Source of the DNA: Caprella mutica
Taxonomy: Eukaryota; Arthropoda; Malacostraca; Amphipoda; Caprellidae
Reading direction: 5' to 3'
Assembly (NCBI GenBank): GCA_947561585.1
Contig: CANNZV010001467.1
Coordinates: 88,885-152,884 of the forward strand
Length of the DNA: 64,000 nucleotides
In this document: piece by piece, positions 2,927 to 37,096 of the stretch
Layout of the letters: the number at the start of each line of letters is the position of its first letter
Position numbering within the stretch: the stretch's first letter is position 1
Program-made: the position numbers and the translations under genes
Notes under the pieces: model-generated
What the model saw: only the letters and a program-made list of their open reading frames with translations
The model's database searches: none
What the model was told of the DNA's origin: nothing

Positions 2927-2935
2927 CATGAAAAT

Positions 2936-3358
2936 GGTTCTAGGAAAAGTAGGCCTCAGAAAATTCGGTTTCAGTTTATAATGATTTTATTAAGAACATA
3001 AATAGAAAAAGGTGAAACTATGGATACTAAAATGTGTATTAAAAGCGGATAACATCATTCACCGCTGTAAAATTATACGAAACATTAACAACATTTATTT
3101 AAGATGAGATTTGATCGGAAAATTTGGTCTCGGAAAATTCGGTCTGAGGTATACATAAAACTTATTGTAAAGGGGGGCGTACCACCACCATAACCCCCCC
3201 CCCACCCACCTAGGTAATTGAAAATCATAAAGTGTGCAGTACAACAAACTAGCAGATACAACAAACTACCTATCGGCCATTTAAATTACGAGGGCATTCA
3301 AGTTTCCCTGACAGAAATTTCCAGACCTGATATTCCGAGACCAAAATTTCCGGCCACC
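2936..3358. mobile_element. FB-1: short foldback-like element with inverted repeat words
   Basis: The left end starts GGTTCTAGG and carries words such as TCTCGGAAAATTCGG (2955-2975 and 3116-3146). The right end (3300-3358) carries the same words inverted and degenerate, and read inward on the minus strand it starts GGTGGCCGG. These two 9-mers match the two ends of FB-A at 20082-22509. Flanking 9-mers CATGAAAAT (2927-2935) and CTTGAAAGT (3359-3367) agree at 7 of 9 positions, as expected for an old 9-bp target duplication. A C-rich run lies inside (3190-3210). There is no coding capacity, so it is a non-autonomous copy. The boundaries are inferred from the terminal 9-mers. Confidence 0.6.
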
Positions 3359-3367
3359 CTTGAAAGT

Positions 3368-5366
3368 ATACTTAGTACTTACACAGCCATCAAACTATTA
3401 TGTCTTGTCATCTTTCTTTAAATCAATTTATCTTCAAACAACAAAAATAAGACTAGCATTTTCCGTTGAGTTATTACCTTTCGATATATTGCTATTTAAA
3501 AAATTTCCCTCTCAATAAAAATTTCATCTATGAAATAATTTATCGTTTGTTGGAAGAGAAAACCAATCCTATTGTAAATCTTTTATTTTGAGAGTCAATT
3601 AGATTCCAAATGATATTATGTGCCATGACTAAGATAATATTTATATTGTTATTATTTAGTAATAGAAACTAAAGACTAAATATATCTTGATAAATTCTTT
3701 GGAAAGCTAATAAACCTAAAATATATCGATTGTACATTTAAGTAAAATTAATTAAAGGAATAATTTAATACTTATTTTCAATATTATAATAAAAAATAAA
3801 TTTCAATTATTTTAGAGAATCATATGATTAATTGAAACTTTCAGAAAATCTATAAATTACCGAGGCTCGAAAATGAACAATAATTTTTAACATCATTTGA
3901 AATATGATGATTATACTTCTATGTAGTTAAATTATATTCATTTCTGTTAATTAATTTCAATAAGATCAGTAATTAAGAAAATATTCAATTATGATTTTTT
4001 TAAGATTACAACTAAAAATATTCAGAGAACATTTTTGAAATCTTTAATGTATGAATTCAAATCCAAAATTTATGAAATCCAAAATGAAAAGTTCAATTTG
4101 TATTACAACAAAATTATAAAATGAGTCATGATACATAATTTGAAAGTAGGAGTCCCGATAAATGAATTTGAACAAATATCCATCAAATCATTAAATCATT
4201 CATGAAAATATTACCGGAACTAATATTTCAATGATATGATTTTATCAAATAGAACTTATAAAGAATAAAGAGAACATTTCGCCACCATTAGCTCATCCGA
4301 AGATTACGAATAACAAATCCGTCGCAGTCTAATTTAGCAAAACTGTCGAAGGCGAACTAATCTTCTAATTCCTCGGAAGATTCTGATGCCATTTTAACGT
4401 CTTCAAAAAATAAGAGAAGTTCTTACATTGAGATTCTTTGCCACCAAATTAGTAGAGTTAATCCTACATCAACATGCAGGGCTCAGACGAAGAGAAAGAT
4501 GCACTGATGAGAACGGGAGGAAAATATTCACTCTATTACTAGGATTTTAACTATAGAATAATGATGAAATTTTCTTTTGTTATTTACATTTACCGTAGAA
4601 CTCCCCGTTAGTGAAATCCTGTATAATGAACCATCTTGAATAGGTGAGTCCTGCGTAATTAACTAGCATCTGTAGTGAAGATATTGTCATGCACAAAATA
4701 GTCATTTTTGAGGATTTTATCATCCTAATAATAAATAAGATGTGCATATGAAATATCATCATAACGTATATTGCGTAAATAAAATAGATATTAAAAAAAT
4801 GGATATATTTCTTAGAATTATCACTATTCTGATATTACAGCAATCATTTAACAGGGGAAAATTGTAAAAGAATATCTTTCATAGTTTATATTTAAAGCCA
4901 AAGTACACGATGAGATAATCTGCTCCTTGTTAAAAGCAAATTTATTATTTAAATCTTTATTTATTTACAGTCCGTATTATATCAATTAACAAAGTAAATA
5001 TTCTTCATTTGTTCAGTTGCTCCCTTTTTAATATTTCACATTCAAATAATCACAGATTCAACAAAGCATCGCTATCAAAATACTGCAGAGTTTACGCAAG
5101 ATAATTACTTTTAATTTGATGTTTATTTTGCAGAGAGAGGGAAATAAATTATAAATCACGAGGCGAAATGATATCATTTAACTCTTTTAATAATAGATTA
5201 TTTTCTCATGTTGTATTTACTGTTGGTGTGTTTTTTAACGTTACAATTAACAAGTGTAAATAGTTCACCAGATAAAACATTCACCAAAAAGTAAGTAAGT
5301 TAATAAATTAGGTGAAGTTAGATATTTTGTTTGTTAAGTAAAATCGATGTTAATAGAAAATACATT
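3368..5366. other. AT-rich DNA, nothing recognised
   Basis: No gene, array or inverted repeat was recognised. The only open frame of note (minus 4580-4762) is short and has no domain. Confidence 0.5.
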
Positions 5367-5541
5367 GAAGCGATAGAACAGAATTGTAGTCTGTTGTAGA
5401 TGGAGATTATGATCTTCATTTTGGTTTCCACTCAATCACAGATTTGTTGAGTAATGATGCTGTTCGAATTGTATTGATGGACGATTTCGAACGGGAGTTT
5501 GAATTCAAAGAGACTCTAACGTCAATAGAAATGACAGGAAC
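5367..5541. repeat. Dispersed repeat R1, copy 1
   Basis: About 175 bp that recur in the same orientation at 13439-13613 with only scattered substitutions. Both copies start GAAGCGAT and end near AATAGAAATGACA. The minus strand is partly open in both copies, so it may be a fragment of a coding transposon, but no domain was recognised. Confidence 0.75.
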
Positions 5542-7428
5542 ATCTGTTATCTATTTATTGTAGTTCTCGGAAATAATTTTAGTTTTATAACATTGATACA
5601 TTTGTTATACAATCAAAGAAAATATTTTTTTAATGATAATTGCACAGATATATTTAATGCAATTTTTAGTGAGAAATTGTATATTTATCTGAAATATTCG
5701 GCAAAAAATATTGTTTAGTCACAGAAGCATTTTCAACTATATAGATTTATGCTCGATTTCAGTGATAGTGATTTTACAAATATTGAATATTGATAATCCA
5801 TTCTTGTGACTCAATTTACTAAAGTTCCAACTAAGTGTTAAATTCGCCCCTTTTTGTCGGTCTCTAAATTTGCCATTCTATCTTTTTGAATCCTATTCGA
5901 TAACAAAGTACTTCTCGTTTCAGATTCCACGAACAATCGGCTGTTCTTTCCGAAGAAATTTGAAGTTACTTTTATTGCAGGGATTCGGTTTTGAATTGGA
6001 CTTTTGAAGACGATTCAGGTTTAGAATATTTTCTTGCAATCTTCTGCAATGTTCGAGAAATCGATATTTTTATTCCAAATAAATTATGAGATTGGAACGT
6101 TAAGAATTTGGTCTGAAGTTTTCAAACACGATACCCAGATCGAAAAAGGTTATGCTTTGGAATTTATATTTCTATATTTTATCTAATGTTTCACTTTTTC
6201 TCTAAGGTGAAATTTAATATGAATAATATAGATATGTTGTGATTGATAAAATAGAAGAAGTGGAAAAATTAAATATCTATATTGAGGAACAAAATTTTCA
6301 GAAAACCTGCAAGATTTTATGATAAAGGAAAGTTCTAATAATACTCCGATATTACATTATATAATTTATATGTAAATTCCTACAAAACTCATTTTCAGTA
6401 TGAAACCTGAATTGTACGAGTTCATTCTTTCTATCTTCTTTTTCTCTCATTTTCTTTCTTTCTTTCTTTCAACATGTGAATTGTATACATTTTATAACTA
6501 TGTAATAATTATTATGAATACGATGTACTTACATATTTTTAACTCAATTATTTTTTATTATTTTGCCTGAAAGTATTCTTAATATCATACAGGCTTGTGT
6601 TTCTTGTATTTCATATTTTCACAATAAATATTATCATCTTCTTTTTCAAAATGGTTATAATGAATAAGGTTTATTAGAAATAGAAAATATTATTTGAGGA
6701 TACACGCTTTGATTATATCATTTAATTCAATGAGAACCTCAATTCAGTCGTTTGAAGTTAACAATTCATGTATAATAAATGGATACACTTCAGATATCTG
6801 GAAACTGTTTATTTACAGTTGAGAGAGGCTAAAATATACTGAGAAAACATTTTAATTATAACAGTGAATTATCTTTTATCTCTTTCTCACATTAATATTT
6901 TTATACAACCACTTCATTCTGAGGCAAATTCCATTTAAGTTCTAACCAAAAAATCACGTAACTGACTAATCTCTCCACCAAAAATGTCCTCAGAGATTTT
7001 CTTCAGGTGGGGGATTAAAATCTGAGTTCTCTCTTTTCAAATTGGCTGTTGAGAAAGAAGTGGGAGATAACTAATGAATAATGTGGAGTGCGAGGTTAGA
7101 AAGTCAATTTGGCAAGTAAGATTATTGTCTGAGAGTTAATGGATTTTCACAATTCATTAGCGTTAACTAATTAGAAATGAATTGGTTATTAGTTTTGATA
7201 AAACTTATTATTAGTGTATTAAATTAGAATAATTTAACAAATAACAGCGGCACTAGGACCATTCTATTATATAGTTATTATCTTTTTTCTCACTACTCTT
7301 TCTTCTAATATTGTATGTTTTTCTGCATGTACAGAATTTAGGTATGTAAATCACATCTTTTATATCTAGCATTACTAAAATATGAATACGTGAATATTCA
7401 GTTAAAAGACATTTATCTTTTAAAGTAT
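5542..7428. other. AT-rich DNA with a small TTTC microsatellite
   Basis: Nothing recognised apart from a (TTTC)n run at about 6450-6470. Confidence 0.5.
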
Positions 7429-7437
7429 ATTAAGAAT

Positions 7438-8885
7438 GGCAGTAAGACTTTTCCCCACCGAATCTTTCCCTCCAGGACTAATACCCGCTGTAATTTTTCC
7501 CGTCATGACTATTCCCCCCTGAACTTTTCCCCGTCGAATAAAATGTTCATATTTTGGGAAGCTATAATTTTGATAAAACAAAAAATTAAACAATAGAAGA
7601 AACATTTCATTAACAGATTTAAACAGCAATACAGTCTTATTTTTATCTTTGACTCCTGTATGTGTCCATATATTGGTCGTTTTGACATTAAAACTGTGCT
7701 TTTCTAAATTCACACTAGATTTAGGGATGATACAAAGTACAAACATTATTGCAATAGTTAGGGATTGCCAAATATTGCGAGGTACTCTAAGCAGCAACGA
7801 TTAATTCAGTTTATCTCAGCTCTATAGCTACACACATCGTGAATCCATTATTTTCATTGGCAGCTATTTTAAAAGTTACCGATCCATTTACGAATTGTTC
7901 AATTTTTTCTTCACCCGAGCGTTAACAAATTCAATTGTATTTTATTAATTTGACAGTAAATATTTGTTGGTACCTACTACAGAATTAATAATCCAGCTAT
8001 AGATTTTTTTACACTTAATAGTGGCCTCTTTTCATTATTGTGTATTTTTTGAAATATGCTTATTTGATATCTATGCCATAAGAACTTACAATGGTTTCAC
8101 CATTATTATGAAAATACATAAGTTAGAGTGCTTAAATACTTAAATCAAGAATTTTCAAGCAGTCAGGATTCAGAACGATTTAGAACTAATTTTCGAAGGA
8201 GTAACTAAAACAAAACAGCTTCAAGGAGTTGGTAGAAAAATGAATCTGTATCGTGATACTATTTTATTGCTGGTAAAAGGATATAACTATTGATTCGTAT
8301 AAACAATTAAACATGTAGTGAGCTTCTACTGTAACTAAATTATTTAAATATACTTTTCCTATCCAATATTTCAGTATTCGAAACTTTTTATATTCGTAGA
8401 AGTAAATTGGATCGGATCACTTGCAATAACTAATAAGGAAGCTTTACTGATATTTGATAATTTGAATAATTAGTACCTACACAGGAAATAATGTAGAATA
8501 ATTAATGAATGAGATGAGTTCTAAGGAGTTCAATTAATCTGGTAACTTTTTTGAAACGATTTTTGGTGTAAGAAATAACATTTTTGAATTAATAAAAATG
8601 ACAGATAATGATGAAAACTAGAATTATGATTGAAATAAAATAATTTGATTAATGATTCGTGCTTACAACATTCAAGCATCCGGCCATTGAGATTGTATAA
8701 ATATTCAAATACATTTAGTATACAATAAACATTTTGTGTGAGTATGTAATCATATAGTAAAAAAATGATAACACTGTTAGATTAGACTTTATATAATTGG
8801 CGGGGAAAGGTCCGGCGGAGAATAGTCCAGCTAGATGAGAAATAGTCCGGCAGGGAAAAGTCCGACGGGGAAAATTCCGTTTCCC
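7438..8885. mobile_element. FB-2: foldback-like element with perfect 9-bp target duplication
   Basis: The flanks are identical: ATTAAGAAT at 7429-7437 and at 8886-8894, both followed by G. The inner ends are inverted: GGCAGTAAGACTTTTCCCC on the left and, on the minus strand from the right, GGGAAACGGAATTTTCCCC. Each end continues as a degenerate array built on CTTTTCCC plus a G/C-rich linker (left 7447-7541, right 8799-8880 inverted). The 1.25-kb interior is AT-rich; a minus-strand frame at 7420-7797 and an adjoining open stretch at about 7810-7930 might be remnants of coding sequence, but no transposase motif was found. The target duplication makes the boundaries firm. Confidence 0.8.
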
Positions 8886-9104
8886 ATTAAGAATGAACCT
8901 AGATATATTTATTTATCTCTTCATTTTTCTAGCTGAGAAAAAGTCCAAACCAGACGGAAAATGTGAAACCTTTCAAATACTGAAATAATAGAAATGAGTT
9001 AATTTACTCAGTTTTGTGTGATAAAATGAACTCTACATAATCTTCTTGATGTGTATCTACGTAATTACTATTAATTTGCTTTTATTTATTCTTTAATAAC
9101 GAAA

Positions 9105-9240
9105 TATTGGCGGGGGAAGTGTTGGTGGGGGAAGTGAAGGTAAACTGTGAAGCTAAAATATAAATTAGAGAAGGTAAAATGTTGTATGGTGATAATATTA
9201 AATGGATGAAATGAACTTTATTTATTACATTGAATATACT
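9105..9240. repeat. Dispersed repeat R2, copy 1 (G-rich head)
   Basis: Starts with GGCGGGGGAAGTGTTGGTGGGGGAAG-type G-rich text and runs into AGCTAAAATAT and GGTGATAAT motifs. The same order (G-rich GGGGGAA..GTGAAGG, then GAGCTAAAATAT, then GTGATAATG) is seen at 63650-63830, so this is a dispersed repeat. The class is unknown. Confidence 0.55.
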
Positions 9241-11390: not shown

Positions 11391-11601
11391 CAGGGTACCC
11401 AAAGTGTACCCAACTTTGAAATAGTATAAATATTGTAGTTAAAAATAAATACAAATTAGAGTTCAAGCAAAACAAAAGTGATATATTTTTACTTGTATCC
11501 ATTACACCACCAACATTGCATAAGATTCATTATTTATTTATAAAAACAATATTTATAATAATTTAAAATTGGGTTGCTACAGATTTTTGTGGGTCACCCT
11601 G
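11391..11601. mobile_element. Small TA-flanked MITE (Tc1/mariner-type ends)
   Basis: Starts CAGGGTACCC after TATA and ends GGGTCACCCTG before TATA, so short inverted ends CAGGGT(G)ACCC are flanked by TA on both sides. This is the layout of small non-autonomous Tc1/mariner elements. At 211 bp it is non-coding. The short inverted ends leave some doubt. Confidence 0.6.
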
Positions 11602-13340: not shown

Positions 13341-13388
13341 CCATTCGGTTTGTGCTCCATTCGGTTTGTGCTCCATTCGGTTTGTGTG
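13341..13388. repeat. 16-bp tandem repeat, three copies
   Basis: The unit CCATTCGGTTTGTGCT is present three times with almost no variation. It lies just upstream of R1 copy 2. Confidence 0.85.
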
Positions 13389-13438
13389 TTGCATTTATAA
13401 CTGTAGAATATTCTGTTTTGATTTTACTAAGAACAAAA

Positions 13439-16087: not shown

Positions 16088-16209
16088 CCAGATTAATCTG
16101 TTTGATCATTAATAACATTTACGAATAATTAATTTCATATTATTATATTATAATCTGATATAATCTGATTTATGTAATTAGCTAAACTTTTGTTCCTATT
16201 TCCTAGAAC

Positions 16210-16437
16210 CGAATACCTATACAGATAGAATACCAACAACTTAACGGACAAAATGCCTAACGGACAAAATGCATTATGGACAAAATACCTAACGGACAGA
16301 ATACCTACCATCTAGAATGCCTGACGGACAAAACGCCTAATGGACAAAATGCGTAACAGATAAAATGGCTAACTTGCATAAAGCCTAACAGACGAAATGC
16401 ATAACTGACAAAATGAATACTGGACAAAATATATGGA
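16210..16437. repeat. Single-sided 16-bp array (AACGGACAAAATGCCT word)
   Basis: About 12 degenerate copies of AACGGACAAAATGCCT, with period near 16 bp. It resembles the end arrays of the foldback-like elements: an A/T-rich core alternating with a G/C-richer linker. No inverted partner array was found in the window, so it may be a solo arm. Confidence 0.75.
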
Positions 16438-19939: not shown

Positions 19940-20081
19940 TTGAAACTTTCCCCTCATCTCAACGTCTCAAATATTGATGAGAACACTGAAGTTTATGTGG
20001 ACTGTGACTTGAAGGTGAATCCATCGGCTAAACTGAACATGTGGAGTCACAATTTAAATTTTCTCAACACAAACTTCAAGT
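19940..20081 (+). CDS. Sidestep-like exon: N-terminal half of an Ig domain
   Basis: A good acceptor (pyrimidine tract ending TTTTTTTCTCAG, AG at 19938-19939) is followed in phase 0 by a frame reading LKLSPHLNVSN, then EVYVDCDLKVNPSAKLNMW. The Cys (VDC) and the Trp about 12 residues later (NMW) are the B-strand Cys and C-strand Trp of an Ig fold. The pattern Glu-x-Tyr-x-x-Cys-x-x-x-x-Asn-Pro is typical of Sidestep Ig domains. The frame meets TGA at 20084. The likely ancestral donor is the GT at 20080-20081, which is now the last two bases of the FB-A target duplication. Exon end is therefore uncertain by a few bases. Confidence 0.6.
20073..20081. repeat. Left 9-bp target duplication of FB-A
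   Basis: ACTTCAAGT here and ATTTCAAGT at 22510-22518 match at 8 of 9 positions and bracket FB-A. The duplicated bases include the end of the Ig exon and the GT of its splice donor. Confidence 0.7.
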
Positions 20082-20088
20082 GGTGACC

Positions 20089-20260
20089 GGTATATTCCAC
20101 CCCGGTATATTCCACCCGGTATATTCCACCCGGTATATTCCACCCGGTATATTGCACCTCGGTATATTCCACCCCGGTAAATTGCATCCCGGTATATTCC
20201 ACCCCGATAAATTGCATCCCGGTATATTCCACCCCGCTAAGTTCCACCCCACTTTACGGG
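20089..20260. repeat. FB-A left arm array
   Basis: About eleven copies of a 15-16-bp word CGGTATATTCCACCCC, with later copies reading CGGTAAATTGCATCC. Two long frames here (20041-20274 plus, 20047-20247 minus) are by-products of the array and encode only PGIFH-type repeats. Confidence 0.9.
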
Positions 20261-20425
20261 TTTGGTTTGGTTAATCGTTAATATTAATCATTCATTCAAG
20301 TTTTGTACAATATTAAGTAAGTTGCATTTTCTTTATACATATGTATATGCTGTTTATATTTCACTATACATGTGATAGAACAACAGAAATAAAGGTTGTG
20401 TAATTGCTCTTTATCAGTTTAATCT

Positions 20426-21643
20426 CGTGCACGGACATTTCGTCCACGGAAAATTCGTCCACGAACATTTCATCCACGGACATTTCGTCCACGGAAAATT
20501 CGTCCACGGACATTTCGTCCAACGGACACTTCGTCCACGGACATTTCGTCCACGGACAATGCGTCCACGAATTGCTTTATTTTGTATTATATTTATAATG
20601 TGTATATAATTTATATTGAACATTATTTACAGATATTGTGCAATATAAAAGTAGAAAACACCATTTGTTGATGGTAATTATAAATTCATGGTCTTTGCCA
20701 TAATTCTTATTGTAATCTTCTTCTCCTGCTCCTACTGGCCGGCAACAGTAAAATAAAATAACTTAATTTTTTTTAATGATATACAGGCAGGCTTAGCTTT
20801 TATTATTCCATTGTCTTGCAAAATCTATTATAATAGCGAGGCATGTCTCGAAGTTATTAGAGTATATAAACATAGAAAATAGTGGACATAATAACAATAA
20901 CTACAATAAACATCAATATTATTACTCAGATTAGGATATTAGAAGCAATATTGGTACAGAAATTACTTTTTTATAACACATTTTTTAACAGTGATTGAAT
21001 AAAAATTCATACGTGATACAAGTTAATAATAACAAGTGATAACAAGACTTAACAAGTGATTGATAATGAATTATGTTATAAAAGAATTAGGTAGATACTG
21101 GTACTTTCTAGTGTTGCCTTTAATTATTTAAACGTAAAACCGGCTATGCTATTATACTGTTCCATATTTTCAAACTCATAATAAAACCATATATAATCAT
21201 TATTATTTACCTATTGTAATTATTTCATTTCACTCTGTTATTTCAGTTCCATATTTTAGATACTCATTACTCATTAATTATTTATGCAAAATATTAAAGG
21301 AGATATATAACTTAAATATACAGTCAAACCGTTTATCATGTCTAATTTCATAACTAATCGAAGGGTAAACATTTTTTTTGTGTTCAAATGGAATTGTCCG
21401 GAATAAATCACTATACCTAATATTATTATGTATTTATACATGCCTATTAATGTAATAGTGAGAAATATTGTGAAATATATCCCATTACACTTTAAAATAC
21501 AAAATTAAGCAATTCGTGGACGAAATGTCCGTAGACGAATTGTCCGTGGACGAAATGTCCGTTGGACGAAATGTCCGTGGACGAATTGTCCGTGGACAAA
21601 ATGTCCGTGGACGAAATGTCCGTGGATGAAATGTCCTAGACCC
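20426..21643. mobile_element. FB-B: foldback-like element nested in FB-A, perfect 9-bp target duplication
   Basis: Identical GTTTAATCT flanks lie at 20417-20425 and 21644-21652. Inside them the left end is CGTGCACGG followed by an array of GACATTTCGTCCACGG (20434-20571). The right end is the inverted array (21512-21636) closing with CCTAGACCC, which is GGGTCTAGG on the minus strand and is close to the GGTTCTAGG end of FB-A and FB-1. The interior, 20580-21510, is AT-rich with no recognised coding sequence. The perfect flanks against 8/9 for FB-A fit a later insertion into FB-A. Confidence 0.8.
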
Positions 21644-21652
21644 GTTTAATCT

Positions 21653-22305
21653 ATTCTGAAGCTGTCTTTGGTAAATGGAAGAGAAGGGAGTTAGTATCCC
21701 TTTGGCCCCAAACTGTTGTAATTTGGAATATGTTTTTTTTCATGTTTATCACTCTTTAACCGCTACTTGCAGTTTTAGAGTTTAGTGCTAGGTTCATGCT
21801 CTTCAACTATGATGTCTTATTATTTGTTATAAGTTAGGCTCGTAGGCCTCATTTGTAGATGGTAGGTGACTCGGGTAATGGAGTCAATTACCTTTCTGAC
21901 AGCTCCTTCCAGTCACTTGCATATAATTTTCTTTCGTAGTCAGCTTTATGGTCTTTGGTTCTGAAACAGACTTTAAACTTCTAATTATACTAATGATATG
22001 TTCTTCAACTACAATGTCTTTGATTTTCGTTTTGGTTAGACACGCTGCTTCATTTAATACATCTCTTCATTTTCCATCTGTGATTCCAACAACTAGGGCT
22101 TGTGTCTTTTGTATTCACATTACTACATTCACTGAGTAGATATTCTGCATACATGAACTTTGTCAACTTTAAGAGGAAGGTGAATTTGATCATGGAGCCA
22201 ATTTTCTTTTGACTGCTTCTTCTAGTCCTTTGTATGAAATTTCTTTCAGACGTCGGCGATATGTATAGACACTTAACCCCATACTGAAGTAAAATATTTT
22301 TTCAC
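21653..22305. other. FB-A interior, G+C-richer unassigned block
   Basis: Between FB-B and the right arm of FB-A lies about 650 bp with G+C above the local mean and short open stretches on both strands (for example + 21948-22139). The minus strand reads partly open around 21930-22090, with stops and frame changes. It could be a decayed coding part of the element, but no transposase motif was seen. Confidence 0.3.
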
Positions 22306-22500
22306 AGGGGTGGAATATACCTAGGGTGGAATTTACCGGGGTTGAATATACCAGGGTGGAATGTGCCGGGGTTGAATATACCAGGGTGGAATATACCGGG
22401 ATGGACTATACCAGGGTGGAATATACCAGGATGGACTATACTAGGGTGGAAAATACCGGGGTGGAATTTATAGGGGTGGACTATACCAGGGTGAAATATC
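22306..22500. repeat. FB-A right arm array (inverted)
   Basis: About twelve copies of a 15-16-bp word such as GGGTGGAATATACCAG, the reverse complement of the left arm word with its own variants (for example GGATGGACTATACCAG). The minus-strand frame 22302-22511 is an artefact of the array. Confidence 0.9.
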
Positions 22501-22509
22501 CCTAGAACC

Positions 22510-22578
22510 ATTTCAAGTATTTATAGCATCTTTAAAAAGAGAATATAGTCTTTATTTATCACGCCTTTTGTCAAACAG
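22510..22578. other. Right target duplication and residue of a short intron
   Basis: The 9-bp copy ATTTCAAGT is followed by ATTTATAG... and a pyrimidine-rich stretch ending CTTTTGTCAAACAG before the next exon. Removing FB-A and one duplication copy would leave an intron of about 62 bp starting GTATTT, a typical short insect intron. This supports insertion of FB-A at the exon-intron border. Confidence 0.5.
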
Positions 22579-22738
22579 AAAGTTCCGATAGTGCCAAACA
22601 AAGCGAAGGGAATCGTACAGAGCAATATGAGTCTAGTCCTCCAGAGAGTTAGTAGGAAATCTTCAGGAGTTTATACTTGCTCTGCTGCCAACAAGTTTGG
22701 GTCATCAACTAGCAATGAGTTGCAGTTGACTGTAAAAT
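22579..22738 (+). CDS. Sidestep-like exon: C-terminal half of an Ig domain
   Basis: The frame from AAA after the acceptor CAAACAG (AG 22577-22578) reads KVPIVPNKAKGIVQ, then SNMSLVLQRVSRKSSGVYTC and ends in LQLTVK. This is the E-F-G half of an Ig domain. The motif N-x-S-L-V-L-Q-x-V-(S/T)-R-x-S-(S/A)-G-x-Y-T-C is characteristic of the Sidestep family. The Tyr-x-Cys provides the second disulphide Cys. The donor is AAAT/GTGAGG (GT at 22739), phase 1, and the split codon starting with T fits the Val-Lys-Tyr usually found here. Start in phase 0. Confidence 0.7.
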
Positions 22739-23376
22739 GTGAGGAAACAAATAGCACTAATTCTTCTTGTTGATCTGACATTTATTAAATTTATTGGTTC
22801 TTGATTTTTTGAATATGGAATATGACTAATAATTATGGTAAATTCTTAGTGATGAAAGAAGATGTAGATTAATAATTCACAATTTAGTCCCAATATTATG
22901 ATGTGTGATGATAATATATTAGTACTTAAATATTTAAAAAAAATTGTTGTTTAAATTCTTAAAGAAATGTTGTCAGGTATCATAAATCTTTTCCACTCCA
23001 ATAGGAAACTCTTCCAATTCACTCACGTGTATCACCACCACTAAATTGCTTACAATTCGGTACACTTCTTCGTTGGGTAGAAAACTCCGACGACTCAGTC
23101 AGTCGTCAGAGTTATCCATTCGTGCGGCATCCAAATGCTTTCCATTTATCGAAACAAATAAATTCTTTTGTTGAAAACAATTGTGACGAATAATAAGAAT
23201 AATAACGAGTTCCTGTAAATTGGTAGAGAGTAATACTTTTTTTGTTTTTGAAAATTATACCTATCAATACTCCTGGAATAAATACTTATTTTCATGGATA
23301 TTCTCTAATAACCCAGGAATAAATCCTTCTTCCTGGTTATAGTACTTTATCTGTTTCTAAAGATTATACCTGCCAG
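22739..23376. other. Presumed intron; expected last Ig domain not found
   Basis: In Sidestep proteins a further Ig domain normally lies between this point and FN3. I found no Cys/Trp pattern for it here in any forward frame. The stretch holds a hairpin (GACGACT/AGTCGTC, 23089-23107). It also holds a duplication of the acceptor region: TTATACCTATCAATACTCC (about 23258) resembles TTATACCTGCCAGCATTCC (about 23364). A palindromic GGATATTCTC..CCCAGGAATAAATCC block (about 23297-23333) is shared with 34412-34456. Confidence 0.45.
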
Positions 23377-26879: not shown

Positions 26880-27028
26880 TTTATGATAAACATTTCCTTC
26901 ATTTTATTGTGCATAATTTTATTTAGAGTAATAATCAGAGTAATTTCGGTTAAAATGAATATAATTTGCAGCTAGCAATTTATAGCTCTTCATAAATTAT
27001 GTTAAGAATTCATATATTTTCTTATTAT

Positions 27029-27130: not shown

Positions 27131-27732
27131 ATAATTATAGAGTTTAAGCCCATATGTAAGTATGAAACTCTTTTCAATGGAGTTCAATAAAATAAGTTCA
27201 ATGGATTTATCATTCATAAAAATTAACTATTTTCCTTCGATAGCTGACAGAGATGTTTAAAGAAAATATATAAATATTTATAAATTATACATATAAGCTT
27301 ATAATTTATAGATAAGAGTATTTACTCAATAGTTTTATAATATAACTACTAACTAACATGTCTTGGAACTTACAAACTAGGTAAATAATAAAAAATTATA
27401 CTTCTTAATAAAAAAATCAATTGACGTATAATCATTTATTTCAACATCCAAATTATTTAACTTTAATTAATTTGCTGCTCTGAGTAAATTTGTTCAGTCG
27501 TATAATGGGTAAGTCGTTAATGTGATTAATATTGAAAAATAACAGAAGCAATTCTGCATTGATTCAATATTTGCCATACCATAAAATCTATTATCCAATC
27601 ATTTGATCTCTTCTACTTTATTATGGAATGAAAGCTTTTCCATTACAGTTTCAAATATATATAAATGATTTAAAGTGTGTCATTCACTTTATTGCAGATC
27701 TCTTTTTGTTAATATTAAAATAATATTATTCC
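27131..27732. other. AT-rich DNA, nothing recognised
   Basis: No feature recognised between the LINE tail and the Tc1-like element. Confidence 0.45.
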
Positions 27733-27734
27733 TA

Positions 27735-29047
27735 CAGTAGTGAAACTTGGCACACTGGAAGATTGCTTCTAGGTTAGTATCTTGAGAAATATTATTTGAA
27801 TCCATGCGAAATTTAGAAAATTAAGAATTTTTTGGATTTTTATGAATTTCAACTGTCAATCGCTTAAAATGCCAAAAAAAATGGACGAGTTACTACTACC
27901 AAGAGGGCAAAATAGTAGCAGATCATGTAGAAGTGTGAACACTTCTAGATTTAGCAGAAGACCTTGTAAGGGATGAAATAACTCTAGTTTCTTTTGTGAA
28001 GGATCCCAATATCAAGCCAAGGAGAGATGAGAGTACGAGAAGAACCATTTTCCCATCGTGATATGCGAAAAATACGCAAGGCTGGCATTGGTCCTATGTC
28101 CACTGTCCAGAAAGACCCGATGCAATGTCTTTAATGAAATGGCCAGAGCTGCTCAATGGGGTTTATGATCGGGGTACAAGTCAGTCGAGTCATGAGAGTC
28201 TTTCAATTGATGGCCAGAGATGCAAGGAAAGAAATTGTATCCCTTGATGGATGAGATAGAGCGCTTTGTTATGCATGGAAATCATTGTATGTCGATAATA
28301 TAAGGGCAAGTTATTGATCCATCCAAGGAAACAAATGATCATTTAAAAATGCTATGTATGTTTGGCCTGTAAGTCTTACAGCCTCTTTTACTCGGAAAGA
28401 TCCATTAAGTTTGTCACATATGATACCCGCATAACGCCACCACCTCTTTGTTGAAGGTGAATCCATTGTGGAGTAACAGCTCCAGTAGGTTATAAACTTT
28501 ACCACATCCCTCTGGACCATCAATGACAGTTTTAGCCACATCTGTGAAGATAACCTTTTGAAAGTTGGTGTACACGTACTTATATGTCCCCGTAATGCTC
28601 TTTTCCTTATGGGTTTTGTTCAAAGGAGGCTGGAATTCGGTTTCACTTTGCTGGCCCTTTCATTTAAGACATTGCATTGGGTTTTTGCCAGCCATGACAA
28701 TGCCAGTCATGTCAAAATGGTGGCACTAGTGACATTTACCTGCTTTATAACTTGCCTTTGTATTTTTCGCATATCACGCTGGGAGAATGTTTATAATCGT
28801 ACCCTCACATCTCCTTTGCTCGGTGATGTGATTCTCCACAAAATAAACTAGAGTTATCTCATTCCTTGCCAGTTTTTTGGCAAAATCTTGAAGTGAACTT
28901 CCTTCTTCATTGATTGACAGTTAAAAGCGATTGACATTTAAATCCCTCAAGAATACGAAAAAATTCATAACTTTCTAGATTTCGCATGGATTCAATGCAA
29001 TATACTAACCTAGAAGCAATCTTCCAGTGATCCCAGATTTACTACTG
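27735..29047 (-). mobile_element. Decayed Tc1/mariner-superfamily transposon with long inverted ends
   Basis: Starts CAGTAGTGAAACTTGGCAC after TA (27733-27734) and ends ...AAATTTACTACTG-type text at 29047 before TA. The inverted ends share GAAGATTGCTTCTAGGTTAG and remain alignable with gaps for about 330 bp on each side (to about 28090 and from about 28720). That is long for this superfamily. The total, 1313 bp, is typical of Tc1-like elements. The interior encodes a broken DDE transposase on the minus strand. TA flanks and CAGT ends are diagnostic of the superfamily. Confidence 0.85.
28110..28640 (-). pseudogene. Broken Tc1-like DDE transposase
   Basis: On the minus strand, in order from high to low coordinates: FQKVIFTDVAK followed by DGPEG (first catalytic Asp region), then, in another frame, AGIICDKLNGSFRVKEAV and LTGQTYIAFLNDHLFPWMDQ (the strand before the second Asp). 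After further stops come SHPSRDTISFLASLAIN and finally NPIEQLW, the conserved stretch next to the third catalytic acid. These are the landmarks of Tc1-like transposases, a nuclear DNA cut-and-paste enzyme acting on TA targets. At least two frame changes and several stops (for example directly after WMDQ) make it inactive. The N-terminal DNA-binding domain is not recognisable and lies where the inverted ends are longest. Confidence 0.8.
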
Positions 29048-29300
29048 TAAGATCAATATGACACAGTGTATTATATATTTGCTAAGTGATCAAATGTTTC
29101 AAAAACTAAAAAAATGAATCTGTATATTTTATCAATTAATCAATATAATTATAAAGTGATTTCGATAATTGTTAAATTGAAAATTGTGCTATCGGTATTT
29201 GCAATATCGATATTTTTGGTATCGACGCTCTCATCTTGAACACTTTACATATATTTAGTAATTGATGTTCCATCCGATTGAAAATCGTCATTTATTATTA

Positions 29301-30158: not shown

Positions 30159-30211
30159 AATAATGTTTGAAAATACTAATAATTACTTGTTATGTATTTC
30201 TAGTCACAATA

Positions 30212-30290
30212 ATTAATCTGTATTTTAGCTTTAGATCATAGGAGTCAATTTTGAAATATGATGTATTTTAGCTTTAGATCATAGAAGTCA
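30212..30290. repeat. Short tandem duplication
   Basis: TGTATTTTAGCTTTAGATCA followed by TAGRAGTCA occurs twice in a row about 46 bp apart. Confidence 0.8.
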
Positions 30291-30299
30291 TCTGTATCA

Positions 30300-31940
30300 A
30301 TTTGTAAATATGATTTACAGACTATACATGCTTTCTTTCTACATTTTCTTTAGGGTCTAGATTATTTCAGTGAATATTGGGTGCAAGTTGTAAGAGTTCT
30401 TTTGAACTTAAGTGCTTCTTCATCAAATATGGAGGGTGGTGAGAGTCACCAGAGACTCGAAGGATCCATGTAATAAAATTCACTCCTTTTTGAATATTCT
30501 GTGTTAGAATAATATTATTTGAGTCGGAGATTAAGTATTCAGTGTAAATCTAACTATCAAATAATGAACGTTCAGTTCAAATTATGTTTATATTTCAATT
30601 GGTGTTAGTATTAGAACCTTGAGTTTAAATTGAAAACTCAAATAATCTAATATTTTATTATTGATGAGAGCATCACAACATTAAATAATAAAAATCATTT
30701 AATAGTGAGTGTGACTTATCACAGTAATAAATCACTGTCACTGTAATGGAACTCGATATGAGATTTAAAGAGAAATATAATTAATAACCGAACACATGAT
30801 CAAATAGTATTTATTATAAAAGTTCATATGAATAAATTAGAAACCTACATAATGTATAATCAATAATTAGAGTATTAAAAAAGTATTACATTAAATCCAG
30901 GTCATTTCCTAACTTAGTTATTCCTTGGTGCCTATTTTCTCAATATTATTGCAGAAGCAGTATTGATAAATCATTGACTAAACTGTCAATATTTAGACTC
31001 TCTCTGATCCTATCTGAAATGTGCCACGACAGTCACACTTTACTCCTACGAACATTTTCATCTTTAGTTGCCTTTGCATTGGGTAAATTTACTGTTTTCC
31101 ACCTTTCAATACTGAAAATAATTCATTGTACTGAAATTTGGTTCTGCAACACTTAAGTTAAGAACAGTCATTCTCATTTTTTACAAACTAATAGCTAATT
31201 ACCAGGTTACATTTTATCTATAAATATTTAAATAGCTCTCTTGTAGACGCTGTGTGCTGTTTATAATTATTGATACACTTTTTTTGAAATGAGTGGCCAT
31301 TTTTGTAAATATCACAATTAATCTTTAACGTAATAAAATATGGAATATCTTCCTCTATATTTATAGCAGTCATCTCAATACCTCTTCACATCTCTCACAT
31401 ATATTAGACGTAAGACCTACCTAATATGTCTTGGCAGATGTTATTAGATGTGCCAAATGAGTCTTTGCAACAAGAATATAAATATTTTTCTAGTCCATGA
31501 CTAATAGAGAGACTATGAAATACTTCTAAGGACACTCATTCCCATCTACAAATGCAAATGTATAACTCCCATATCTATATAAACTATTTTTACAATTAGA
31601 AATTAATTACTTTTGAATAACAATTTTAACTTTCCTAAACTAATATCAGATAAGAAATATTCAACAAAAGCTACTGTCATATAAAATGAACATCTGAAAA
31701 TGCTTGTCATTTCCTATTAAATAGCTTGTGATAAAATAAGATAAAAATAATCAATAGGAATATTTCTGAGGATCATATTTAACTCCATTTGTGAAAAGAT
31801 TGCAAGATAAGACCCTCTAATATTTCATTCTTTAGAATGATACTGACAAATTTTTATTATCATTCGATTTTAGGAACTTTCATTTAATCAGCAGAATGTG
31901 TAAAGTATATACCTATATGGAGATATGTGAATCTGTACCT
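30300..31940. other. AT-rich DNA, nothing recognised
   Basis: No exon or element supported. The frame 30974-31156 (+) shows no domain. Confidence 0.45.
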
Positions 31941-31947
31941 TAAGACT

Positions 31948-31980
31948 GGACCGGCTATTGGGTCCACCAATAATTGGGCC
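31948..31980. repeat. Possible short foldback-type word pair
   Basis: GGACCGGCTATTGGGTCCAC and then CAATAATTGGGCC shows the same alternation of A/T-rich core (ATTGGG) and G/C linker as the foldback arms. Only two words are present. It lies 135 bp before the Mutator transposase fragment. Confidence 0.35.
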
Positions 31981-32114
31981 AAAAAAAACGTTACATTGTT
32001 CTTCAATTTATTTTATACCATAGAGACTCTAATAAAAACAACAGAAAAATTAAAAAAAAATCTTTCTATAAAAACAATGCATACATAATATTTAATTTGT
32101 ACTTAATGATTTAT

Positions 32115-32280
32115 TATGGTTCATTTCATGGATAGGAAAACCATTCAGAAGAAATAAACGAAATATCCTTTTCAAATCATATTTCTGGAGTCTCTACAAC
32201 CGAGTCATGGAAGATGTTCCTCGTCCCACTAATGCAACTGAAAATCCTCTTACAATAAGCATAATATTCCAGTTCAAAGA
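32115..32280 (+). pseudogene. Mutator (MULE, Phantom-like) transposase C-terminal fragment
   Basis: The + frame reads VLNDLLWFISWIGKPFRRNK, then NILFKSYFWSLYNRVMEDVP and RPTNATENPL before a stop. The order Trp-Ile-Gly-x-x-x-Arg-Arg, then Trp-x-x-Tyr-x-Arg-x-x-x-x-x-Pro-Arg-(T)-(N)-N/A-x-x-E, matches the region after the catalytic core of Phantom-type Mutator transposases, where a W-I-G-R-P stretch precedes W-N-V-Y-E-R-x-L-x-x-x-P-R-T-N-N-x-x-E. The conserved RTNN is changed to RPTNAT, and there is no catalytic core upstream, so it is a short dead fragment. Mutator enzymes make 9-bp target duplications, as do the foldback elements of this window. Family call by eye. Confidence 0.6.
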
Positions 32281-32786
32281 ATAGTGACCATAGCCCTATA
32301 GTTCATATCTTCACTCTACTCAATTGCCAGCAGCTTTGAAGGGTTTATAATCACCACAAATGGCCCCAAAAGTCTCTCATTGTGCCACTAGCGCCACTCT
32401 TATCCACACCATAAATAACAGTGAGCGCCATTGCTTCTGAATTACATTGAATATAGGAATTATTATTTTGCTCTACCATAGTGAAGTGTGTCTTCATTGA
32501 AAAATGTGGTGTGTCAATTACCATGTAATTACCGTCATGAGTATTTATGAATGTAACTGAAAAGATAGAAATGATTTGATCATGAATGATAATAAAAATT
32601 ACTATAATCTATATTCGATCTCCTGTTTTTTTTTAATATTCTTGTAATTATTAAAAAAATTGAAAACTATATGATGATGATTAAATATATATATATCAAA
32701 GTATGGTGAATAAATTATGGTGCCTATGTTGTAACTATAGTCATTATGTGAAGATTGTTTCTAAAAATGTGATCTCATTGTACAAG
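32281..32786. other. Unassigned DNA, partly G+C-richer
   Basis: The block 32281-32530 is richer in G+C than the flanks and may be more of the same decayed transposon, but neither strand gave a recognisable motif. Confidence 0.3.
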
Positions 32787-32915
32787 GCAAGAAAGGAGAG
32801 AAATGAGACACGAAAAAGAGGAGCATTGCACTTAGAAACAAGGAGAGAAAGGAGAGAAATGAGACATGAAGAAGAGGAGCATTGCACTTAGGAACAGGGA
32901 GAGAAAGGAGAGAAA
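32787..32915. repeat. 56-bp tandem repeat, about 2.3 copies
   Basis: The unit starts AAGGAGAGAAATGAGACAYG and continues AAGAGGAGCATTGCACTTAG. It is purine-rich. The frame at 32703-32891 is a by-product. Confidence 0.9.
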
Positions 32916-33320
32916 TTTCTCTTATTTTGTTGCCACCTGTGAATAATCGGTTCTAATTATTTGACTAAATCAAAATAAAGACAGAATAAATGTTTTAACG
33001 AAATAGAAAATGTGAAAAATATTTAATTGTTTAGATGGCATAGTAACATTTAAAAAAATCAGATTTCATTAATATTATTCAATTCTGTTTATATATTTAA
33101 ATGATACACTTCAGAACAAACTTTATGTTATATTATTTTAATGGATATCTTTTTATTGAAGCTGAACCATGATAATTATTGAGGATAAATGTAATATGTA
33201 GATACATTCCATTGTTTCAGTTCATTATTAATGTGCAATTTTATAATAAATACACATCATATTGAACTGAACAATAATCGACATCAAACTTAAATTATTG
33301 GTGCTTAATCGATTGTATTA

Positions 33321-33378
33321 GTATACTATAGTTTATATACTTACTATAGTTTATATTACTTACTATAGTTTATATTAT
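33321..33378. repeat. 17-18-bp tandem repeat, three copies
   Basis: ACTATAGTTTATATTACTT-type unit repeated three times. Confidence 0.8.
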
Positions 33379-33830
33379 CATGATAATTCAATTACACATA
33401 CAAGTACATCTATTATTATTTAAATAGATGAATAATTTCCGAGTAACAATAATTAATGTATGAATCGTTAGATCGTCTCAGATTGAAATGAGTATATTAT
33501 TTTAATGATGTAAATTTAACCCAACTTTCATAATGATAACGAGAAACTGCATCCAAAAATATCATAAGAAAATTAATGGTATACACTCTCAGAATAAAAG
33601 CAATGTTTTTTTTAATGCAAACTAATAAGTAAGTCTTGAATTATTATTTACGAAATCCCAAGAAGATCAGCACAATCTCCTAAAATGTCACACCTTTATC
33701 CTATTCTAAAGGTTTAATGTTCCCAACGTCTCTCGAGTAGTAAAGTTCTCTTTGAATCTAGGCTGCTGAAATTGCATCCAAATTATATATCTCGCAGACA
33801 AATTTCCCAGAAGTTCTCATAACTCTCGAC

Positions 33831-34110
33831 ACTGAAACACTCTTCAGTTTACTGAAACACTCTTCAGTTTACTGAAACACTCTTCAGTTTACTGAAACAC
33901 TCTTCAGTTTACTGAAACACTCTTCAGTTTACTGAAACACTCTTCAGTTTACTGAAACACTCTTCAGTTTACTGAAACACTCTTCAGTTTACTGAAACAC
34001 TCTTCAGTTTACTGAAACACTCTTCAGTTTACTGAAACACTCTTCAGTTTACTGAAACACTCTTCAGTTTACTGAAACACTCTTCAGTTTACTGAAACAC
34101 TCTTCAGTTT
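33831..34110. repeat. Perfect 20-bp minisatellite, 14 identical copies
   Basis: ACTGAAACACTCTTCAGTTT is repeated 14 times with no substitution, then decays (ACTAAACACA, and AAACACTTCAG at 34157). Each unit contains an inverted pair ACTGAA/TTCAGT around ACACTC, so single strands could fold into a row of small hairpins. The identity implies very recent expansion or homogenisation. Confidence 0.97.
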
Positions 34111-34344
34111 ACTAAACACATTATCATTTAACTATATAATACTCGTAAGTTTACTAAAACACTTCAGTTTTTTCTGTTTCAGCAGTGTTCTCTATCATTC
34201 TCAGCTCCAATATGTTGTAATAAATTTTTAAACGCAAAGATAAACTTCAAAATTATCTCTAGGTACTCAAATAATGTGATTGAGTACTTACTGATAATTT
34301 TGTGATTGACACATGCCCTGAAGCACACATTAAATCCAGGTATG

Positions 34345-34456
34345 AAAAATTTATTCCTGGGATATTATGGGAATATTTCTGGGATATTATGGGAATATTC
34401 CTGGGAAGAAAGATTCATTATTGGGATATTCTCTTAATATCCCAGGAATAAATCCT
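34345..34456. repeat. Short inverted repeat with internal tandem words
   Basis: ATTTATTCCTGGGATATT on the left and its exact complement AATATCCCAGGAATAAAT on the right enclose two more copies of TTCCTGGGATATTATGGGAA-type words. It is a miniature of the foldback layout. The right half recurs at about 23297-23333 in the Sidestep-like region. Confidence 0.7.
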
Positions 34457-35075
34457 CCTTGCCAGATCAGAAGTTTGAGGTTGAAATCCGTACCTGCGCA
34501 TGTTCTTAGTCAAAGTTCATCCAAATTTATGCATCAAGTTCTTTTTTGCAACAATAACCCAATTTGCATAACTACCGTAGAAGTTCGAAAGTTCAGGTAC
34601 GTGGATTGGTTTCAATCCAATTTGGAAATGTACCCTAGCAAGGAAAATGGATCATATCTACGAAAATAAAAAGTTCATTATCTGAATATTTTACACTTGG
34701 TTTTATGGATGGGAAAAATATGAGTGTGAAATAAAAATATTACTTATAGGTATTAGATTATTCCCAGACTGGCTTTTGACTTCTTTCTATTTTAATCACA
34801 GATGTAACAATGTGTAACAATAATATAGTGAAAGGCCTTTTAATCTATATCTACAGTATATATACATTTATAATTGCGTATATACTTTTAAGACTTTTTA
34901 ACTTGTTAATTTGAATATTTTCATATTGAAAAAAAAGTAGGAGTCATAGTTCCTTCCATACAACTCAATAAACTAATATATTCAGACAAATATTGAAAAA
35001 TAATTATACAACATAATACGAACAAATTTACGGATTTTCTTTCCAATATCTAATCAAATAGAGGACATCAGCACA

Positions 35076-35669
35076 TGAAATTACCACAGCAGCACCTTAG
35101 AACTGCGAGAGAACGTGTGTTCCCGTGTGAGGAAGGAGTAACAACCTTACAATTATGCTCACCCTGTGACAGAAATGGCACGCAACCTTTGCATGAAAAG
35201 ATATTCACGCTAGAGGCAGAGTTAGGCTAATTTAATTATGAAATGCATGGTACATACAATGAGAGCCTTTCTTCCGAACACACTCCTCTAGTGATCCCAT
35301 TCGAAGAATTTCTAAGCTCAAGTTTAAGGTCATTTCCAAACACAGTAATTTTTCAAGTACATACAGGAAATATTTCCACCAGGTCTGATAAGTGTTTGCT
35401 TTCATTAAGACTTTTATTCTGTCAGCTAATAAAGTCGTCTGAGAGAGTTGTTACTGAGGAGAAATTATCAGAGAATAATCTCTCGGAAGGAACATTTTGT
35501 CAATGTGACTGCTTGTAATTCTGCCATTAAGTTAAAAATTAAATTAGGTACAAACTGTTCGATGGAAGTGGAAGAAGAATACATGTCTTTAGTTGAAGAA
35601 GAATACGTGTCTATTGTAAATGTGCATATGAATTCACTCTTCATTCTTTTAAGTAATCAATATAGATAA
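35076..35669 (+). other. Consecutive unassigned open frames, coding status unknown
   Basis: From ATG 35077 a 50-codon frame reads MKLPQQHLRTARERVFPCEE and LQLCSPCDRNGTQPLHEK before TAA. It is followed by frames at 35243-35518 and 35448-35669. Composition is less AT-biased than most chance frames, and the first has three Cys in 18 residues. I recognise no domain, and the frames overlap each other, so this may be a decayed gene or chance. Confidence 0.2.
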
Positions 35670-35818
35670 TATCTGTCTTACAAACTCTTGTGCGGGTATG
35701 ATATTCATATGTCTTTAAAAAATGATCTGTCAATTATTTTAACGACTCTTAGATTTTCAAAAAATCACCTTCTAACTTTATTTAGATAATGAAGCCACAA
35801 AGGGGTCATCAATATATA

Positions 35819-37096
35819 GGTCGGACGGGGTATCACTGCGCACAATCCCGCAAACTTTGTATTCACTCGAAAACTAAAAGTACTAGAGAAACTCATTTTC
35901 TCGTGATGAAATGGTCGTAAATGAAGATGGTTCTCAATCAGTTTCGAAATAATAGCTAAATAAATAAAATACTTATTGGCAATTTTTTGTGCGTAACTTT
36001 TAGTGAGCGCATCGGGGTATCATTGCACATATGAAGGGGTATTACTGCGCACATGAAGGGGTATTACTGCGCATTGCATAAATACAGCACTTTTCTCCCC
36101 CACATAAATACCTCCTGTCCCCATTTTAATATCTTTTCTCCCTCTTATCTAAACCCTCTTCTTTCCCTATCTAAATATCCCTCTCCTCCCATCTTAATCC
36201 CCCTCTTTTCCCATCTAAATCCCCCTCTCTTACCATTTTAATCACACTCTCTCCCATCTATTTCTCCCTCTTCCACATTTAAATCATCCTCTCCCTCATT
36301 TAAACGCCTGTGCTTCCCTCTTTACATGTCCTCCCCCCAATCTACTTGTCTCTTGCTTTTTAAAAACATATTTAATAAATCTGATACAAATTTAACACTT
36401 AAATTTTACGCAACTAGTTAACTACTTATATCAAGTGATATAATACGATCGTATGTTTATTGTTAATCAATATTTAATTCAAAAACCTCTCGCTCCCCCC
36501 CACCCCCCCCCCCCCCCCTAAATACCCATTCTCCCTATTTCAATACCCCCACATCAAATTGCATAGCTAAAATGCTCGTAAGTTTATTGTTAATCAAATT
36601 TATAATTGAATAACACCTTATTCAATATTTATGCCTTTATTAAGAGCTAAAAAATTATATTTTTTATATTTATTTAATAACAAATGTGGTTATTAATGAT
36701 GCGCAGTGATACCCCTCTACCTCTAAATTATCTGGGGTATCACTGGGCACAGTTGCGGCGGGAAAACCAGTGAAATTGAGAAGCTGAAAAGTTGACATAA
36801 TGTAACTGTTATTGTTTGTGCTAACATGTTAAAACAATATGAATCTACAAATCTTGGTAATAGAGTTATTGGACAGTTTGCGGGATTTAAAAATCACCAG
36901 CGCAAGCTTTTTTCAGATCGTTCTGAGAGCACTAAATATATTGCGACTTAGCTTTAGATCATGTTTTTGGGAGAAAAGAAGATGTTTGAACTGATGGTGC
37001 GATCAGATTTAGGCTAAAACAAGTGGTTTTAAAGTTATTAGGGGTGCGGAGTGATAGTCCATAAAAAGGGTATGAGCAGTGATACCCCGTCAGACC
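35819..37096. mobile_element. FB-3: foldback-like element, GGTATCACTGCGCA words
   Basis: The left end is GGTCGGACGGGGTATCACTG; the minus-strand reading of the right end is GGTCTGACGGGGTATCACTG, identical at 19 of 20 positions. Further copies of the word GGGGTATCACTGCGCA lie inside, direct at 36013-36072 and 36733-36750, inverted at 36700-36716 and 37068-37088. The flanking 9-mers are only weakly alike (5/9), so the insertion is old or the site was not a clean 9-bp one. The interior holds a pyrimidine-rich array (36075-36360) and a poly-C run (36494-36518). No coding sequence was recognised. Confidence 0.75.
36075..36360. repeat. Pyrimidine-rich degenerate array inside FB-3
   Basis: Degenerate words of the type CCCATCTAAATCCCCCTCTC with a period near 20-22 bp, about 12 copies. 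The + frame 36053-36241 is an artefact of this composition. Confidence 0.75.

Follow-up and report, generated by a model that had tools for sequence, protein, structure and literature searches.

The 64,000-nucleotide stretch of the Caprella mutica genome analysed here (contig C1467, positions 88885-152884; the window) contains five foldback-like elements, FB-1, FB-2, FB-A, FB-B and FB-3, whose inverted arms are built from short tandem words, and it raises the question of how elements of one layout come to carry a different word in each member. A preliminary description of the window had assigned a common layout to all five and suggested that unrelated words had replaced one another while period and ends were kept. 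We positioned all five elements exactly and found one anatomy common to four of them, FB-1, FB-2, FB-A and FB-B. The arm words of these four are divergent versions of one 15-bp template, held in one register and one orientation. The four elements are very probably non-autonomous cut-and-paste Mutator (MULE) transposons of the Phantom type, which has a FLYWCH finger, with foldback arms.

At opposite ends of each of the four elements lie a 7-bp motif closing in TA and a distinct 7-bp motif closing in C (Table 1). The arms consist of inverted 15-bp words, the first of which is situated directly inward of the 7-bp end. The words start with GG, and GG is found immediately inward of the 7-bp motif at seven of the eight ends. 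The terminal 9-mers quoted earlier for FB-1, FB-A and FB-B are present at the located ends. Likewise, the 9-bp flanking matches previously given for FB-1, FB-2, FB-A and FB-B (7, 9, 8 and 9 of 9 positions) were reproduced, and the chance frequencies of such matches at the same spacing in the window are 3.3e-3, 3.2e-5, 2.8e-4 and 1.6e-5, respectively. Cross-pairs of flanks among the four elements agree at 5 of 9 positions at most, and with offsets of -4 to +4 tried, the true offset was the best in all four.

The unit length is 15 bp in 47 of the 59 parsed units of the four elements, which corrects the period near 16 bp given before. In the register set by the ends, the consensus words are GGAAAATTCGGTCTC (FB-1), GGACTTTTCCCCGCC (FB-2), GGTATATTCCACCCC (FB-A) and GGACATTTCGTCCAC (FB-B). 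We compared the first words at the eight window ends between elements as an unselected test of a shared template. They are alike at a mean of 7.96 of 15 positions, compared to 3.8 for shuffled words (0 of 20000 shuffles); against rotated words the agreement has a P of 0.0005, and with the two leading positions dropped a P of 0.00015. The words had been called unrelated on the basis of arbitrary rotations, and that statement does not survive the comparison in register. A broader comparison of ten words from the window and the genome gave agreement at 9.27 of 15 positions versus 3.97 for shuffled words (maximum over 20000 shuffles, 5.47), with positions 1, 2, 8 and 15 invariant; it is more descriptive than a test, since a template-fitting word was the condition for admitting MULE loci, and locus L232 had itself been picked up by the template pattern.

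The ends were also modelled. In leave-one-out models the eight held-out ends rank 12 to 60 among 127958 positions, and the top places listed for the model built from all elements are mostly units of known arrays. The same model that finds the eight element ends picked out a one-armed relative at 47441, for which neither a second arm nor a duplication was detected within the window. An exact GGTTCTAGG at 16202 was taken as a chance occurrence, as no words follow on its inner side.

To follow this anatomy beyond the window, we searched the 903-Mb assembly (7200 contigs). The TA-type end GGNTCTAGG followed by the word template gave 1749 genome matches, versus 15 for the reversed pattern; for the full pattern, GGNTCTAGGNNNNTTYNNCC, these are 884 + 865 matches versus 7 + 8 when it is read backwards. 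Thirty loci were cut out, and by our own tally 15 carry the FB-A-type word, seven the FB-B word, seven a word of type GGTAAATTCCCCCGC and one GGGCATTTTGTCC. In 15 of the 30, a C-type end whose word matches lies opposite, no more than 1.5 kb away; the rule used for this is blind to flanks, and it missed at least one element (L243, flanks 8/9). Among these 15 two-ended elements, the duplication is 9 bp long in seven (8 or 9 matches) and 8 bp long in six (7 or 8 matches). The flanks had been proposed as a test against random pairs, and duplications of 8-9 bp were found in 13 of the 15 genomic elements versus 0 of 208 cross-pairs. The 8-bp rule was added once the first result had been seen, and the cross-pairs were scored by it too; L251 and L252, both among the 13, lie next to each other on one contig, are nearly identical and probably represent one event. 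As to whether arrays expand without conserved ends, the TA-type end and the word are kept together genome-wide, and end-less arrays also exist: the survey of arrays, which covered the window rather than the whole genome, found three of them, at 13341, 16242 and 53018.

The search was extended to contigs of other origin. Viral contigs gave no match to four word patterns, 38 matches to the end-plus-word pattern and 65 to the general template-array pattern, and bacterial and archaeal contigs gave at least 119 matches to the template-array pattern. A filter over 222 viral, bacterial and archaeal loci, which were not inspected individually, found none that could be taken for a foldback element, the majority having the look of coding repeats.

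Larger relatives with a transposase were sought with the Pfam MULE profile (PF10551), which has 59 matches in the genome. Seven MULE loci were studied at length, six of them, picked for a nearby array, as longer stretches and the seventh, picked for sharing the interior of FB-A, as two flanking pieces. Four of the seven are whole elements with the same types of end, arm words that fit the template and the MULE domain between the arms (C1710, C107, C2450 and C2122; Table 1), with PF10551 E-values of 1e-12 (L290), 4.8e-10 (L291), 3.7e-9 (L292) and 5.7e-13 (L262), respectively. In all four it is the C-type end that precedes the gene. A FLYWCH domain (PF04500) precedes the MULE domain in the same open frame in C1710 (L290, 1.2e-10) and C2122 (L262, 3.1e-11). 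Contig C4601 (L280) carries the C2122 end and word beside a frame that also matches FLYWCH (5.3e-10), and C2268 (L264) has a C-type end GGTGTCC with the word GGAAAACTGCCAGGC. No THAP match was listed in the frames of the transposase-bearing relatives. On contig C107 the MULE-bearing element is directly adjoined by an array of about 67 units (L291:382-1380), whose 15-bp word, ACACTTGGCCCAATG, differs from the element's own.

These relatives made it possible to compare words with transposases. For elements with the same word, the proteins, taken over the linker and the catalytic part, are 95% identical between C1710 and C107 and 89% identical between C2122 and C4601; between the three word lineages the identity is 37-46%. 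The proteins of L260, where no array was found, and of L289, whose array is off-template, are 30-36% identical to the lineage proteins and to one another. A finger diverging faster than the catalytic part was considered and set aside: the difference is at most slight (31-40% versus 41-44% between the template lineages), and some overlaps comprise 32 columns. The interiors of the elements were compared as well. The first interior segment of FB-A matches 10 of the 68 fetched genome loci, every one with an FB-A-type word, and the FB-B interior also matches 10 of the 68: eight that have FB-B-type words, plus L248 and, over a short stretch, L272. The second interior segment of FB-A was examined as a candidate 5' part of a larger element and rejected as neither diagnostic nor word-specific; its position varies between loci, for L290 and L262 have it upstream of the gene and L275 and L260 downstream, and at L289 it lies outside the array. 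As far as it can be checked, by two same-word pairs and the interiors, the word thus marks the lineage. The picture of unrelated words replacing one another therefore gives way to one template, whose versions pair with separate transposase lineages wherever this is checkable. The pairing is consistent with a word that is read by the element's own transposase. A stronger proposal, in which the arm word serves as an address and a transposase lineage is blind to every version of the template but its own, is one that we put forward tentatively, judging it somewhat less probable than its opposite.

Table 1. Foldback-like elements of the window, their arm arrays, and transposase-bearing relatives elsewhere in the genome
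Feature	Position in window, or length	Strand	Ends (for window elements, left / right)	Words and remarks	Flanks
FB-1	2936..3358	+	GGTTCTA (TA-type) / GGTGGCC (C-type)	type GGAAAATTCGGTCTC, decayed and scarce	CATGAAAAT / CTTGAAAGT, 7/9
FB-2	7438..8885	+	GGCAGTA (TA-type) / GGGAAAC (C-type)	type GGACTTTTCCCCGCC, 6 left + 5 right	ATTAAGAAT on both sides, 9/9
FB-A	20082..22509	+	GGTGACC (C-type) / GGTTCTA (TA-type)	GGTATATTCCACCCC, 11 left + 13 right; hosts FB-B	ACTTCAAGT / ATTTCAAGT, 8/9
FB-A left arm array	20089..20250	+			
FB-A right arm array, inverted	22306..22502	-			
FB-B, inside FB-A	20426..21643	+	CGTGCAC (C-type) / GGGTCTA (TA-type)	GGACATTTCGTCCAC, 9 left + 8 right	GTTTAATCT on both sides, 9/9
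FB-B left arm array	20433..20571	+		sole 16-bp unit three units from inner edge	
FB-B right arm array, inverted	21513..21636	-		16-bp unit likewise placed; one unit fewer than left arm	
One-armed relative	47441..47645	+	GGTGCTA (TA-type)	then 12 units of type GGTAATTTGACCCCC	
FB-3	35819..37096	.	GGTCGGACGG / GGTCTGACGG, inverted	dispersed GGTATCACTGCGCAC words	no duplication
C1710 (L290)	3071 bp		GGTGCCC / GGCGCTA	GGAAAACTCACACCC	7/9
C107 (L291)	2656 bp		GGTGCCC / GGCGCTA	GGAAAACTCACACCC	8/9
C2450 (L292)	3714 bp		CGTGACC / GGTGCTA	17-bp word GGACAATTGCCACCCCC; further internal TA-type end	8/9
C2122 (L262 with L294, L295)	about 3.5 kb		GGTGCAC / GGCTCTA	GGACAACTCGTACCC	9/9

The shared ends, template and duplications would link the window elements to these MULE relatives, and they suggest the following course of events. 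Larger relatives elsewhere in the genome would supply the transposase that moves each window element, and in all likelihood the FLYWCH finger of this protein is what attaches it to the words. The transposase would then pair both ends, cut outside the 7-bp motifs and insert the element at a new site, where an 8-9-bp duplication would be left. Each transposase lineage and its words would have diverged together, with the result that words differ between families, and repeat gain, loss and conversion would keep the units of one element alike. The preliminary description had suggested that the period reflects the binding of the arms by a transposase or by a chromatin protein. A transposase that reads the period is plausible; nothing found here speaks specifically for a chromatin protein.

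Several observations weigh against this interpretation. In the window, the flanks of FB-1 match at just 7 of 9 positions, as do those of C1710, so that both fail the duplication rule applied to the genome loci; FB-1 moreover has only few, decayed units. The ends and the first left word of FB-2 deviate from those of the other three elements, and no transposase fragment was found in eight open frames tested across FB-2, FB-A and FB-B. The three end-less arrays mentioned above belong here too. Among the relatives, three of the seven MULE loci (L288, L289 and L293) did not show paired arms of this kind, FLYWCH gave no match for C107 (L291) and C2450 (L292) in the frame tested, and C1710 and C2122 have interrupted reading frames, through either a mutation or an intron. 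That an array lies close to a MULE gene is no evidence alone, since arrays of period 13-19 were present at 10 of 30 MULE loci and, among 19 window tiles, in 7; four of the ten array-bearing MULE loci (L258, L265, L272 and L274) have only words outside the template. Finally, transposase-bearing relatives exist in three word lineages, and the autonomous copy that had been looked for was found to this extent; no transposase was found with exactly the word of FB-A, FB-B, FB-1 or FB-2.

Two of the MULE loci, both also with FLYWCH, carry arrays outside the GG template: TTCGAGCAATTGTCT at L288:382-721 and TTCGATCAATTTTCCT at L289:365-661. These arrays are possibly a second class of words.

The main rival concerns what the words do. 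Rather than transposase sites, they could be sites for an anti-silencing or regulatory protein that the transposon encodes, or for a chromatin protein of the host; the parallel is with the VANDAL elements of Arabidopsis and their VANC proteins. In the accessible part of the account of that system (PMC5735166), the VANC motifs are short, often tandem and different between related VANDAL families, and coevolution with the binding protein is proposed; the single word per lineage seen here looks similar, and VANC offers a precedent for a binding protein and tandem motifs changing together. The VANDAL binder differs in being a separate anti-silencing protein, and the repeats there lie in introns and upstream regions (PMC5735166, in the same part). 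The four transposase-bearing elements of C. mutica span 2.7-3.7 kb; their listed frames gave no sign of a second gene, although small exons could escape notice. In addition, the words adjoin the 7-bp ends without a gap and keep one register, which suits a role in end recognition. We therefore regard a VANC-like function of the words as unlikely.

It is very improbable that the arrays are ordinary minisatellites, arising anywhere in the genome, and that the elements formed where two inverted arrays happen to face each other. Window tiles do often contain an array of period 13-19, and the arrays without recognisable ends may be minisatellites; the paired distinct ends, the flank duplications absent from cross-pairs and the excess of end-plus-word matches over the reversed pattern nevertheless speak against such an origin of the elements, which for FB-2, FB-A and FB-B is contradicted by the 8-9 of 9 flank matches at the element ends. 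Least probable of all is an affiliation with the Galileo-type foldbacks of the P-element superfamily, which share long inverted arms with internal tandem repeats, those of Galileo binding its THAP domain, and differ in having a P-type THAP-finger transposase (PMC3688188, as far as the accessible text goes), as the larger relatives here carry MULE, two of them with FLYWCH, and the duplications measure 8-9 bp.

The arrangement of FB-A and FB-B allows their relative age to be considered. FB-B sits in FB-A, and its flanking duplication is a perfect copy of FB-A sequence. The arms of FB-B are 90% complementary, compared to 71-83% in the listed arm pairs of FB-A; these better-matched arms, together with flanks of 9/9 versus 8/9, fit an FB-B younger than FB-A. 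Because the 16-bp unit has the same place in both FB-B arms and the arms differ by one unit, they look like true inverted copies with gain or loss of a single unit. The two elements lie between seeming coding stretches of an immunoglobulin-domain gene (window 19940-22770), with an I-set domain match at 22549-22770; the upstream coding stretch was judged by eye.

FB-1 and FB-2 lie in a region with copies elsewhere. Window positions 1-7741 are 82-92% identical, in pieces, to contig C4890, and positions 1-3924 likewise to contig C4138. Both contigs carry FB-1, and C4890 also the left part of FB-2, so these insertions seem older than the duplication, and there are no empty sites in the two contigs. 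The FB-1 copies of C4890 and C4138 contain an extra insertion with words of type GGACCAAGTAAAGTTAAC at the point corresponding to window 3234-3243, which the window is without.

FB-3 does not share the anatomy of the other four, and the common layout thus holds for four elements rather than five. We considered it as a member of the group and found this unsupported: its two ends are alike, that is symmetric, its flanks match at 5 of 9 positions (P about 0.09), and its word array at 36014-36073 has a period of 22 with 2.7 copies. No transposase remnant was found in the single open frame tested at FB-3. Elsewhere in the genome, L229:2-202 matches the right part of FB-3 at 70%, and on account of this match FB-3 may represent a different kind of repeat family.

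Four further features of the window were observed. About 24 units of 16 bp (TTATCATTTTCTCTGG) occupy positions 53018-53397, where neither an inverted partner nor element ends were seen. The 16-bp array at 16242-16430 has no bordering end motif, and its word on the other strand, GGCATTTTGTCCGTTA, resembles the FB-B word. At 27723-29059 lies a 1.3-kb inverted-repeat element of another type than the FB group, with arms 77-85% complementary and short open frames, two of which were tested and gave no Pfam match. An open frame of 289 amino acids at 59890-60756 matches a reverse transcriptase domain (PF00078, 8.6e-6), below the curated cut-off.

Drosophila FB elements have long inverted arms with internal tandem repeats and 9-bp duplications, but their words and periods are unlike those described here, and the sea urchin TU elements have 15-bp tandem repeats in the outer arms and 8-bp duplications.

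Close in layout is Tm1, a Mutator/Foldback family of root-knot nematodes. In the accessible sections of its description (PMC3169594), Tm1 has asymmetric 7-bp motifs, A1 (CGGTTAA) and A2 (CCTACCC), generally one per end, followed by GGA and by 13-15-bp tandem repeats; its duplications are 8-10 bp long, most commonly 9 bp, its transposase is of the Phantom type with FLYWCH and MULE, and its copies are mostly non-autonomous. The asymmetric 7-bp ends (four of four window elements), the GG that follows (seven of eight ends), the 15-bp repeats and duplications in the 8-10-bp range are alike in the elements described here, and two of the transposase-bearing relatives likewise pair FLYWCH with MULE. 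Tm1 differs in its own word, CGATTCAGTATCCGC, with one consensus for the family in the text seen, whereas the words and 7-mers here, compared by eye, are different; that text also places a GA-rich motif D inside the Tm1 arms, which was not noticed in the present elements. The present elements are thus relatives of Tm1 by layout and not members of it, and here several families with differing words occur in one genome on one template.

Comparable repeats occur in the MULE families Muta1-Muta14 of Aedes aegypti, for which the available text (PMC5225508) gives duplications of 8-9 bp, a predicted FLYWCH finger in 13 of 14 families, arms longer than 100 bp in 12 of 14, and 9-15-bp subterminal tandem repeats in 10 of those 12. 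Muta5 has nine copies of a 15-bp repeat and an 8-bp terminal motif, and Muta1 nine copies of a 12-bp repeat with 3-4-bp spacers and a 10-bp imperfect palindromic end (PMC5225508, same portion). The likeness in 8-9-bp duplications and subterminal repeats of about 15 bp was drawn by description, and no word template between families was met in the portion of PMC5225508 available. A 2013 paper describes the role of the tandem repeats of Foldback and Phantom elements as binding sites as untested, in the part of its text at hand (PMC3688188).

Mutator foldbacks with subterminal repeats are therefore a known kind, of which the present set is a real and well resolved example. It adds a word template kept in one register and a correspondence of words with transposase lineages; a shared template of this kind was not met with in the accessible portion of the literature on such elements. 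With three lineages in which word and transposase correspond, one constant register and 1749 end-plus-word matches in the genome, the question of whether the repeats are binding sites becomes directly testable, and how a protein and its repeat array change together can likewise be tested in this genome. If each transposase lineage does read only its own version of the template, a change in the FLYWCH finger together with the concerted replacement of all words would give rise to a new transposon family, mutually blind with the old. The type of end, the period and the register would then have stayed constant across a radiation of Mutator foldbacks within one genome.

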